DNA of 64,000 nt from NCBI GenBank assembly GCA_023255955.1, contig JAGDWD010000011.1, positions 1 to 64,000 on the forward strand, given 5' to 3'. Of the stretch, positions 1 to 59,094 are shown one piece after another. Position 1 is the stretch's first letter. Every line of letters starts with the position of its first letter. A program made the position numbers and the translations under genes. This DNA comes from Desulfurococcales archaeon (GTDB taxonomy: Archaea > Thermoproteota > Thermoprotei_A > Sulfolobales > NBVN01). The notes under the pieces were generated by a model. The model worked only from the letters and a program-made list of their open reading frames with translations. It made no database searches and had not been told where the DNA came from.

Positions 1-306
<306 letters not shown>

Positions 307-29315: not shown

Positions 29316-29837
29316 TTGAAGATACCTCTAGACCAGCTGTGTGTGAGGTCTGGAGTGCTGTGTCCTAGGTGTGAAGCACTAGTTAGGAGCGGTACTGTCA
29401 CCGAGTTAGATCTAGAGATAATGAGGCTTCTTCTCAAAGCTGAGACAACCCACGACTTTAGGTTTCTGCGGGACTCTGAGTACGTAAAGTCTGTCAATGT
29501 CGGAAACGTGGTAGTTATTCAACTAAGTGTTCCTCAGCAGTGGGCAGATCAAAGAACACTCACAAAGCTTGCTAAGTACCTAGAGAGTCAGCTAAAGACG
29601 CATGTGAGGATCGTAGACTCTAAGAGTACTAGTACCAAGGAGCTTGTAAGAAGCATTATACAGCCGGCGAGGGTTTTAGGTGTAAACACTCTCTGGCTCC
29701 CGGACGGGTCTGTAGAGTACGTAGTTAGAATACCTAGATCAGATCTGAGGCACTTACCAGCACCTCAGGAGGATGTCGAACACCTTCTTTCCCAGATGGT
29801 CGGAGCAAATGTGAGGATTAGGGTGATCGAGGGCTGA
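29316..29837 (+). CDS. NusA-like KH-domain RNA-binding protein with Cys motif
   Basis: A 173-residue protein. The N-terminus holds [11 protein letters not shown], a probable metal site, followed by [15 protein letters not shown], as in archaeal NusA-like KH proteins. A KH-type region spans about 55-170 ([20 protein letters not shown], later [12 protein letters not shown]). Role in transcription or RNA handling is inferred from the family. Its stop TGA overlaps the presumed CTG start of aspS (CTGA), and the AspRS ribosome-binding site lies inside its last codons. Confidence 0.75.
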
Positions 29838-31129
29838 GCAGGTATAGAACTCACCTCTCTTCTGAGTTAGGACCTCAACTAGATGGAGCTAAGGTAGTTA
29901 TAGCAGGCTGGGTTCACTCTAAGAGAGATCTAGGTGGGAAGAAGTTTCTCCTAGTTAGAGATAAAGACGGAGTGATTCAAGTAGTGATAAGTAAGGAGCA
30001 GAAAGATCTAGTAGAACTCTTCTACAACTTAACGCAGGAGTCTACAGTTTCTGTCGTAGGGACAGTGAAGGCTGATGCTAGAGCGCCGGGAGGGTTTGAG
30101 ATAGTACCGAGTGAGATAGTAGTGCATAGCCTAGCTAAAGCACCTCTCCCACTAGATGTGAGTGGTAAAGTACCAGCTGACTTCGATACAAGGTTTAGAG
30201 AAAGAATCCTCGACCTGAGAAGGGAGGAGAGTAGAGCCATATTCAAGATAATCTCAGTAGCACTTAGAGCCATAAGAGAAGAACTTTATGAGATGGGGTT
30301 CATCGAGGTATTCACACCGAAAATAGTTGCGGCAGCAACAGAGGGAGGGGCGGCACTCTTCCCGGTAGCGTACTTCGGGCGGGAAGCCTATCTAGCTCAG
30401 AGTCCTCAGCTATATAAGGAGCTACTAGCTGGAGCTTTCGAGAGGGTCTTCGAGATAGCACCCGCGTGGAGAGCTGAGGAGTCGGACACTCCATACCACC
30501 TCTCGGAGTTTATATCTGTAGACGTTGAGATGGCTTTCACTAACTACGAAGGCGTGATGAACGTCCTGGAAAGAGTTATAAAAAGAGTCGTCAAGGACGT
30601 GAAGGAGGTTGCCTCTAAGGAGTTACAGATATTGAAATATGAGCCTCCAGATGTGAGAATACCTGTGAAGAGAATTACCTATGCTGAAGCAGTACGATTG
30701 CTGAATGAGAGTGGTGAGAAGATCGAGCTAGGGGAAGACATCTCCACACCCCACTTGAGGAGACTCTCAGAACTTATAGATGAGGAAGTGTACTTCATAG
30801 TGGACTGGCCGGATAAAGCAAGACCTTTCTATACAATGCCTAAGGATGACGGGGTGTTCAGCGAATCCTTCGATTTCGTGTGGAGGAACCTTGAGATAGC
30901 TTCCGGAAGTACTAGAGTCCACAGCAAGGACCTGCTGATTAAGAGGCTAACTGAGAGAGGGTTAAACCCAGATAACTTCAGCTTCTTCCTTAAGTGGTTT
31001 GACTACGGCATGCCTCCACATGCTGGATGGGGTATGGGACTAGCTAGACTGGGACTCATGCTAACAGGTGTTAAAAACGTTAGGGAGGTTACCACGTTCC
31101 CCCGAGATAAGAAGAGGTTATTCCCGTAG
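29834..31129 (+). CDS. aspS: Aspartyl-tRNA synthetase, non-discriminating type, CTG start
   Basis: Class II synthetase of 431 residues: N-terminal OB fold, then motif 2 region around [11 protein letters not shown] and motif 3 [11 protein letters not shown]. The conserved N-terminus (SRYRTH...VVIAGWVH) lies upstream of the first usual start codon, GTG 29972. Between the upstream in-frame TAG (29819-29821) and that point there is no ATG, GTG or TTG; CTG 29834 fits exactly, 5 nt after a perfect GGTGATC (29822-29828), overlapping the upstream stop. His28 and Pro (APGGFEI) replace the Trp and Lys of Asp-only enzymes, so it should also charge tRNA-Asn for GatCAB. Confidence 0.9.
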
Positions 31130-45449: not shown

Positions 45450-45574
45450 GGGCCCGTAGCTCAGCCAGGCAGAGCGGCGGATGAAGGCCGAAGCTCCAGT
45501 CCGGGTCTTAGGACCTTTCGGGATGACTTGGAGAGACCCGTAGGTCGGGGGTTCAAGTCCCCCCGGGCCCACCA
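45450..45574 (+). tRNA. tRNA-Lys (CTT) with two apparent introns
   Basis: Acceptor GGGCCCG/CGGGCCC, D-arm GCTC/GAGC, T-arm GGGGG/CCCCC, encoded CCA. Between D- and T-arms there are 48 extra nt. Removing 45481-45503 (23 nt) and 45511-45535 (25 nt) gives a 74-nt tRNA with anticodon arm GCGGG/CCCGT and anticodon CTT. Exon ends match lysine tRNAs (GAGCGGCGG ... CCGTAGGTC). A TATA-like CTTAAAAAC lies at 45416-45424. Intron borders may be a base or two off, and G32 would be unusual. Confidence 0.75.
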
Positions 45575-55898: not shown

Positions 55899-56411
55899 TT
55901 GATTAATGGCTTGAGGGATGTCTTAAGAGGTTTGCCGGTGGACTTTCGAGAAGTTGAGGAGGTTTTTAAGAAGTTATCTAGTAGGGTTCCCGACTCTAAG
56001 CTTTTGAAAGCCCTCACCGAATCGACAAACTACCTAGCACTTAAACTTGATGATGAGGTCCTAGCAGATCTTAGGGTCAGTACGGCGGTGGTGGAGTTAT
56101 TTATCTCCGGGAGGTCTCTTGATTTTCTGGTTGACTTAGGTTTTACTGATCTTTATGATGTCCTAGCTAGGAATGCTCCCTCCATAAAATCCGTCGCTAT
56201 AAGTAAGGCTATCCCTTCCAGCACTCTCTACCTGGTTATCCAAGGAGATGGAGTTACCACACCAAATGTTCGCTTGATGATATCTAAAGAGCTTTACGAC
56301 CTATCCTCAAGTTTCTGCAGGATATCACCGACAGAGAACACCTATAGTTTCCTGACCAGCATCTTGGAGCTGGGGAAGAAATACTTTGATGAATTCTTTA
56401 GGTCGACCTGA
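55899..56411 (+). CDS. Unknown helical protein
   Basis: 170 residues with mixed helix and strand, no membrane part and no motif I recognise. GGGTGAG precedes the TTG at a good distance. Its last 14 nt overlap the convergent GT-C-like gene. Confidence 0.55.
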   Translation: MINGLRDVLRGLPVDFREVEEVFKKLSSRVPDSKLLKALTESTNYLALKLDDEVLADLRVSTAVVELFISGRSLDFLVDLGFTDLYDVLARNAPSIKSVAISKAIPSSTLYLVIQGDGVTTPNVRLMISKELYDLSSSFCRISPTENTYSFLTSILELGKKYFDEFFRST

Positions 56412-57795: not shown

Positions 57796-57959
57796 CCTCC
57801 TCTCCAGAATAGTGGTTCTCTAGTTGTTATATGTGTTTATGTAGGGAGCGTGATCATAAGAAACCTTAAACTACGGGAAGAATGATCTGAAGATCAGCTA
57901 TTCAAATATTACTAAACCATGCTTTAAAGAACTAGCATAAAAATTCCTAGGGGCGTTAC

Positions 57960-58559
57960 CTGAGTAGATGGATACTAGAAGTAACAGATGGTAAGGTAAC
58001 ATCTATATATGGTAGTGCTGGTAGTGGTAAGACGAATCTATGTCTCTGGATTCTCTCATCTGTGCCAGCCCCAAATCTCTACATAAGTACTGAAGGTTCT
58101 ATACCAACCTCTTTACTAGATAGATACTCACTTACCACGAAGGATTTTCACTTTACGGAGTCTCTGAGCCTTGAAGATCTGGCCACCCGGGTAGTAGATA
58201 TGTTCCTAGGTGGAGAGCTCTCAAAGTACAAGAACATCTGCATAGATTCTATAAATGCTCACTATAGGTATGAAGTAGTAGAAAGACCTGATGCTAATAA
58301 GCTCCTCAACACTACCCTAGCTATCCTATCATATGTATCAGATAGATATGGGAGTAGAGTATTACTCACAGCACAGGTTAGAGAAGAAGAGAGGGAGGTT
58401 ATTCCAAGCGGCTATGAGGTTCTTGAATTCTGGTCAGACCTGGTATTAGAGGTAAGGAAGTCAGGAATACGTAGGGTTGTCTCCGCGATCAAGCCTGCCG
58501 AGCTGAGAGGGAGGAGAGTAGAATTCTCGATAAGCGAGCGGGGGATAGTGTTTGAGTGA
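57960..58559 (+). CDS. Compact RecA-fold ATPase (RadB/aRadC-like), CTG start
   Basis: 199 residues with just the RecA core: Walker A IYGSAGSGKTNLCL, Walker B KNICIDSINAHYR, and LLTAQVREEE in place of the L1 region. No N-terminal HhH domain, so it is a RadA paralogue rather than RadA. The first usual start, GTG 58062, would remove Walker A. Between the TAG at 57948-57950 and Walker A the only near-standard start is CTG 57960. A TATA-like CATAAAAA about 25 nt upstream suggests a leaderless message. It overlaps carS by 8 nt. Confidence 0.85.
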   Translation: MSRWILEVTDGKVTSIYGSAGSGKTNLCLWILSSVPAPNLYISTEGSIPTSLLDRYSLTTKDFHFTESLSLEDLATRVVDMFLGGELSKYKNICIDSINAHYRYEVVERPDANKLLNTTLAILSYVSDRYGSRVLLTAQVREEEREVIPSGYEVLEFWSDLVLEVRKSGIRRVVSAIKPAELRGRRVEFSISERGIVFE

Positions 58560-59094
58560 CCTAGTAGAGACTATACTCGACATACTCTTCTTCGCCCCAG
58601 CCTTCGTAGCGAACGCAGCTCCACTGATTACGAAGAACTTTTTTAAGAGAAGACATCCCATAGATTTCGGGAAACACTTCATCGATGGGAGAAGAGTTTT
58701 TGGGGATAATAAGAGTTGGGAAGGCTTCGTAAGCGGGCTCTTATTCGGGATCTTAACAAGTCTTGCTTTAACACCTCTCTACCCGCAAGCACACTACATG
58801 GAGTTAGCCTTAGTTGGATTTATCGAGGGTCTAGGCGCTATGGTTGGAGACCTAATAAACTCATTCTTGAAGAGGCGGTTAGGGCTAAGACCGGGCGCTC
58901 CTCTTCCTGTATTAGATCAGATATCGTTCATTGTAGTAGCTATAATCCTAGTTAAGACTTTCAAAATAGATAGCTTCATCTATGTAGAGCTAAGTACTCT
59001 TAGATTGGTAATCGTAGCGCTAGTAGCCCTAGTCTTACACCCTCTAACTAATTTCATAGCTTACTTACTGAAGCTAAAGGAGGTTCCTTACTGA
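58552..59094 (+). CDS. carS: CDP-archaeol synthase
   Basis: Activates archaeal lipid precursors with CTP. Membrane protein of 180 residues with four or five helices. The family motif GDLINSFLKRRLGLRPGAPL then PVLDQISF is complete, as is DNKSWEGFVSG. TTG start overlaps the RecA-like gene (TTTGAGTGA), so the two are translationally coupled. Confidence 0.95.
   Translation: MSDLVETILDILFFAPAFVANAAPLITKNFFKRRHPIDFGKHFIDGRRVFGDNKSWEGFVSGLLFGILTSLALTPLYPQAHYMELALVGFIEGLGAMVGDLINSFLKRRLGLRPGAPLPVLDQISFIVVAIILVKTFKIDSFIYVELSTLRLVIVALVALVLHPLTNFIAYLLKLKEVPY

Follow-up and report, generated by a model that had tools for sequence, protein, structure and literature searches.

How translation of a recombination-type ATPase could begin in a frame that offers no ATG, GTG or TTG ahead of its nucleotide-binding loop is the question raised by one locus in the window (the whole stretch of 64,000 nucleotides that was analysed), which comes from a hot-spring archaeon, a Sulfolobales relative. 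On the plus strand the frame reads TAG (57948-57950), then GGG CGT TAC CTG (57960) AGT AGA TGG ATA CTA GAA, and is uninterrupted as far as TGA at 58557-58559. Its first ATG, GTG or TTG is GTG 58062, and since the Walker A motif precedes that codon, the ORF found by the standard rule (58062-58559) loses the nucleotide-binding loop. The preliminary description held that only CTG 57960 can start the frame, and the frame reading agrees, this CTG being the sole NTG codon between TAG 57948 and GTG 58062.

57960-58559, plus strand: ATPase with a RecA core, 199 aa, best described as RadB-like (TIGR02237, Pfam Rad51, AlphaFold2/Foldseek)
57960-57962, plus strand: CTG, very probably the start codon and the only possible NTG
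58011-58034, plus strand: Walker A motif GSAGSGKT (from the translation and an alignment of 14 homologues)

The ATPase and its start codon

The RecA-core fold, the GSAGSGKT Walker A and a Walker B with an invariant D96 place the product in the RecA/RadA/Rad51 superfamily, with G18, A20, G21, G23, K24, T25 and N26 invariant among the 14 homologues. Pfam Rad51 is matched (E=4e-7, 30 bits against a cut-off of 22), as is the sequence of RadB in PDB 2cvf over nearly the full length, and in Foldseek the AlphaFold2 model (pLDDT 90, pTM 0.89) matches Rad51/RadA at a TM of about 0.8. Like RadB, the archaeal RadA paralogue (TIGR02237; PDB 2cvf/2cvh), it consists of a RecA core only, with a Walker A and, as the frame opens just 9 nt before the CTG, no N-terminal helix-hairpin-helix domain in front of that core, and the lengths are similar (220 aa for RadB); it differs in that the TIGR02237 RadB match (71.6 bits, E=7.9e-20) falls below the NCBIfam equivalog cut-off of 172.4 bits. 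The RecA-like ATPase of the preliminary description is thereby borne out in a more specific form, the product being best called a RadB-like RadA paralogue at a score where true RadB and another RadA paralogue are not to be told apart. Its role would probably be that of an accessory in recombination.

The gene also occurs in six further species of the genus, with identities of 56-64%. The codon aligned to CTG 57960 is CTG in four of these congeners and TTG in one (G006, L004), and in G003 (L007) the start has apparently shifted to a GTG two codons later. At L002 a single codon (CAC) separates the stop from the CTG, so that no upstream start is possible there. Counting against the CTG reading, a TTG 19 codons upstream at L005, and upstream ATG, GTG or TTG codons at L006, would permit longer products. 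These start assignments compare uncultivated draft genomes; a contig search returned two named relatives, both uncultivated Sulfolobales metagenome-assembled genomes, and one distant unrelated match. In the AlphaFold2 model, built from the CTG, the first ten residues are confident (mean pLDDT 90) and the first helix begins one residue after that encoded by the CTG. Chance does not account for the frame: congeners keep it, together with its Walker A and with CTG or TTG at that codon, and the N-terminus of the model is confident. With no in-frame ATG, GTG or TTG before the conserved domain and an NTG kept at the start codon, the gene very probably starts with the rare codon CTG; the proposal that it does so draws strong support from the conserved CTG/TTG, from a conserved SD-like AGGG and from the same exchange in other genes (the last two dealt with below).

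Downstream lies a gene whose TTG start overlaps the end of the ATPase gene, and the two may form an operon.

58552-59094, plus strand: carS, CDP-archaeol synthase (PF01864, E=1.2e-36; NF003114 above cut-off)

CTG in other genes of the lineage

CUG accounts for 0.024% of bacterial starts and yields about 1% of the AUG level in E. coli (PMC11497404), and a survey of prokaryotes found one switch to CUG among 2,468 ancestral UUG starts (PMC5622118). CUG is not among the starts that a review of archaeal initiation names, which are AUG, GUG and UUG (PMC7531240).

Stop-to-stop ORFs were compared in stretches of four genomes of the genus, three of sister genera and two of another family, the genus counts referring to three congeners plus this contig with conserved ORFs counted per genome. 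Closely related species share conserved DNA ahead of their genes, which made the initial search for missing starts noisy, and the criteria were then tightened. Of 892 conserved genus ORFs, 54 offer no ATG, GTG or TTG before a point 12 or more codons beyond the start of conservation at the N-terminus; some of the 54 are noise, namely conserved DNA ahead of genes, or ORFs that are shadows or broken. Near the starts of these 54, an SD-like motif precedes CTG in 14 of 18 instances, the figure for other codons being 122 of 484 (Fisher p=7e-6); CTG had also come out as the most enriched codon when looser criteria were used earlier. In the control family, 8 of 252 ORFs were without a canonical start and no CTG, SD-led or otherwise, was found near their starts. 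On this contig three of the 73 ORFs tested need CTG, namely those for the ATPase, for aspS and for a KaiC-like protein.

29834-31129, plus strand: aspS, aspartate--tRNA(Asn) ligase (NF003483 and TIGR00458 above cut-off), apparently the second CTG-started gene in the window
55911-56411, plus strand: conserved gene with no Pfam match, TTG here and CTG at the aligned codon in G001 and G004

The first 50 codons of the aspS frame hold no ATG, GTG or TTG, and the same codon is CTG in the source genome (G000), G002 and G006 and TTG in G001, G003 and G004. In G001 and G004 the aIF5A frame has its CTG immediately after a TAG, with GAGGTG upstream; TTG is present in G000, G002, G003, G005, G006 and the sister genus G009, and ATG in G019, G012, G031 and G041. 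In the KaiC-like gene G000 has CTG where G001, G002, G004 and G006 have an aligned TTG, and further exchange pairs are CTG/TTG or CTG/GTG. As with the rare prokaryotic CUG starts, CUG exchanges with UUG; the difference is that CTG is found here in roughly 2-4% of the conserved ORFs that could be tested (a genus-wide rate estimated from the sampled genome stretches), aIF5A and aspS among them. CTG seems, then, to be a recurrent minority start codon of the genus, seemingly a regular fourth one, and what the preliminary description treated as the oddity of one gene recurs genus-wide. The open literature that was searched held no previous account of CTG starts in this lineage, though one may have escaped the search.

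A different view is that the CTG is a weak start specially selected to keep this recombinase scarce. In bacteria, infC has an AUU start, a near-cognate kept across species for one gene, and the conservation of a near-cognate start at the ATPase gene is a likeness to it; the apparent ATT, ATC or ATA behind GGTGG for this ATPase gene in other genera of the family means that near-cognates recur there, as selection for weakness would have it. Here, however, several genes are involved with no sign of initiation-factor feedback, aIF5A and aspS, whose products are expected to be well expressed, also use CTG in the genus, and the ATPase gene of the related genus g5 has ATG, all of which makes such selection unlikely. 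A relaxed start selection throughout the lineage is the probable broader reading, with CUG a regular fourth NUG start that swaps with UUG even in aIF5A and aspS, and with AUA, AUC, AUU and possibly ACG acting as near-cognate starts behind SD motifs here and in sister genera.

Initiator tRNA is ordinary in all seven genomes of the genus, with A1-U72, a CAU anticodon and a GGG/CCC anticodon stem; alteration of it is ruled out as the cause by the intact anticodon and stem. Loss of aIF1 is ruled out likewise, SUI1 being found in six of the seven genus genomes and in 11 of the 12 tested overall (the one genome with no match is 79%-complete). Neither therefore explains the relaxed start choice. Since its initiator tRNA is ordinary, a lineage with CUG starts in aIF5A or aspS would be a natural system for the study of archaeal start-codon stringency, as set by aIF1, aIF2, SD strength and rRNA. 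A practical consequence is that, with gene finders such as Prodigal ignoring CTG, ATA and ATT starts (PMC2848648), genes of the lineage are truncated (with loss of the Walker A in the present case) or missed.

Several observations bear on neighbouring subjects. An intron interrupts the anticodon loop of the initiator tRNA gene in each of the seven genus genomes and also in G041, but not in G031 (L189-L197). At L008, L012, L013 and L014, loci from other genera in the family, the ATPase gene is without ATG, GTG or TTG before the Walker A; the in-frame codons behind GGTGG there are ATT, ATC, ATA and ATT, and these near-cognates seem to be used as its starts. A gene that by eye is RIO-type kinase-like has an apparent ATA start behind GGTGG in three genera (G009:C22:83284-84090, plus strand; G019:C11:32801-33634, plus strand; G004:C19:257301-258182, minus strand). 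A methionyl-tRNA synthetase-like ORF, also judged by eye (G004:C19:225088-226824, minus strand), is without NTG starts, and its GGGTGTGA AGT ACG suggests a start at ACG.

Predicted transcript 5' end and proposed decoding of the CUG

57923-57928, plus strand: TTTAAA, TATA-like, at -37 from the CTG, the putative true promoter element (from the TATA pattern of congeners and genus)
57936-57943, plus strand: CATAAAAA, the TATA of the preliminary description, 24-17 nt before the CTG
57948-57959, plus strand: predicted 5' leader of about 12 nt, from the TATA spacing
57949-57953, plus strand: SD-like AGGGG (16S pairing)

In archaea SD-led and leaderless initiation coexist, and the distance from TATA to start separates short-leader from leaderless messages (PMC7531240), as it does here. 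The genes of the genus that have a divergent neighbour upstream fall into two groups: the SD-led ones have a TATA-like peak at -37/-38, and the ones lacking an SD have peaks at -37 and at -25/-26. Counterparts of the TTTAAA are present at -37 in L002, L003 and L004 (ATTAAG, ATTAAA and CTTAAG) and at -36 in L006 (CTTAAG), and each of the six loci whose start codon is an NTG (L001-L006) carries AGGG at -10 to -12. A duplex of the ATPase leader with the 16S 3' region GGAUCACCUCCUAGUC is calculated at -11.1 kcal/mol, provided that the mature 16S end reaches that far (the 3' end, read from congener G002, is GGATCACCTCCTAG). That AGGGG differs from the consensus GGTG counts against reading it as an SD. 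From the TATA at -37, the conserved AGGG and the pattern of SD-led genes in the genus, we infer that the mRNA has an SD-containing leader of about 12 nt and is not leaderless.

The preliminary description had instead proposed that the CUG message is possibly leaderless, with CATAAAAA setting the transcription start at or near the CTG. The octamer is AT-rich and lies 17-24 nt upstream, and SD-less genes of the genus do have their second peak nearby. However, CATAAAAA is absent from congeners at the corresponding position, its hexamer, at -23, misses the leaderless peak by 2-3 nt, and a conserved SD-like motif would be left without a role. A leaderless start would go with a TATA some 25-26 nt upstream and no SD; the conserved elements are the TATA at -37 and the AGGG, on which leaderless initiation from CATAAAAA is rejected as unsupported. 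This octamer is probably not the promoter, and a leaderless message is decidedly improbable.

Taken as a whole, the best explanation, and one in which considerable confidence seems warranted, is that CTG 57960 is decoded by Met-tRNAi on a short SD-led mRNA as one case of a habit of the genus. Transcription driven by TTTAAA (57923) would begin about 12 nt upstream of the CTG, UAGGGG in the leader would pair with the 16S 3' end, and ordinary Met-tRNAi would initiate, the C-U mismatch in the first position of the codon being tolerated by the ribosome. Such starts would arise mainly by exchange with TTG. The preponderance of TTG as exchange partner is also what C-to-U editing of the mRNA, converting CUG to UUG before translation, would lead one to expect; TTG to CTG is, however, a simple transition, CTG swaps with GTG as well, and editing of this kind is to our knowledge not known in archaea, leaving it a very slight chance. 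A sequencing or assembly error concealing a canonical start, for which the draft state of the assembly might be invoked, is excluded for practical purposes by CTG at the same codon in independent genomes of other species.

Two RNA genes in the window are of separate interest. The 5' part of a 16S rRNA gene (window 1-306, minus strand) is cut by the contig end, a whole-genome family search of G000 having reported no 16S match. A tRNA recognized by Rfam, spanning 122 nt (window 45450-45571, plus strand) and not called by ARAGORN, probably contains an intron.
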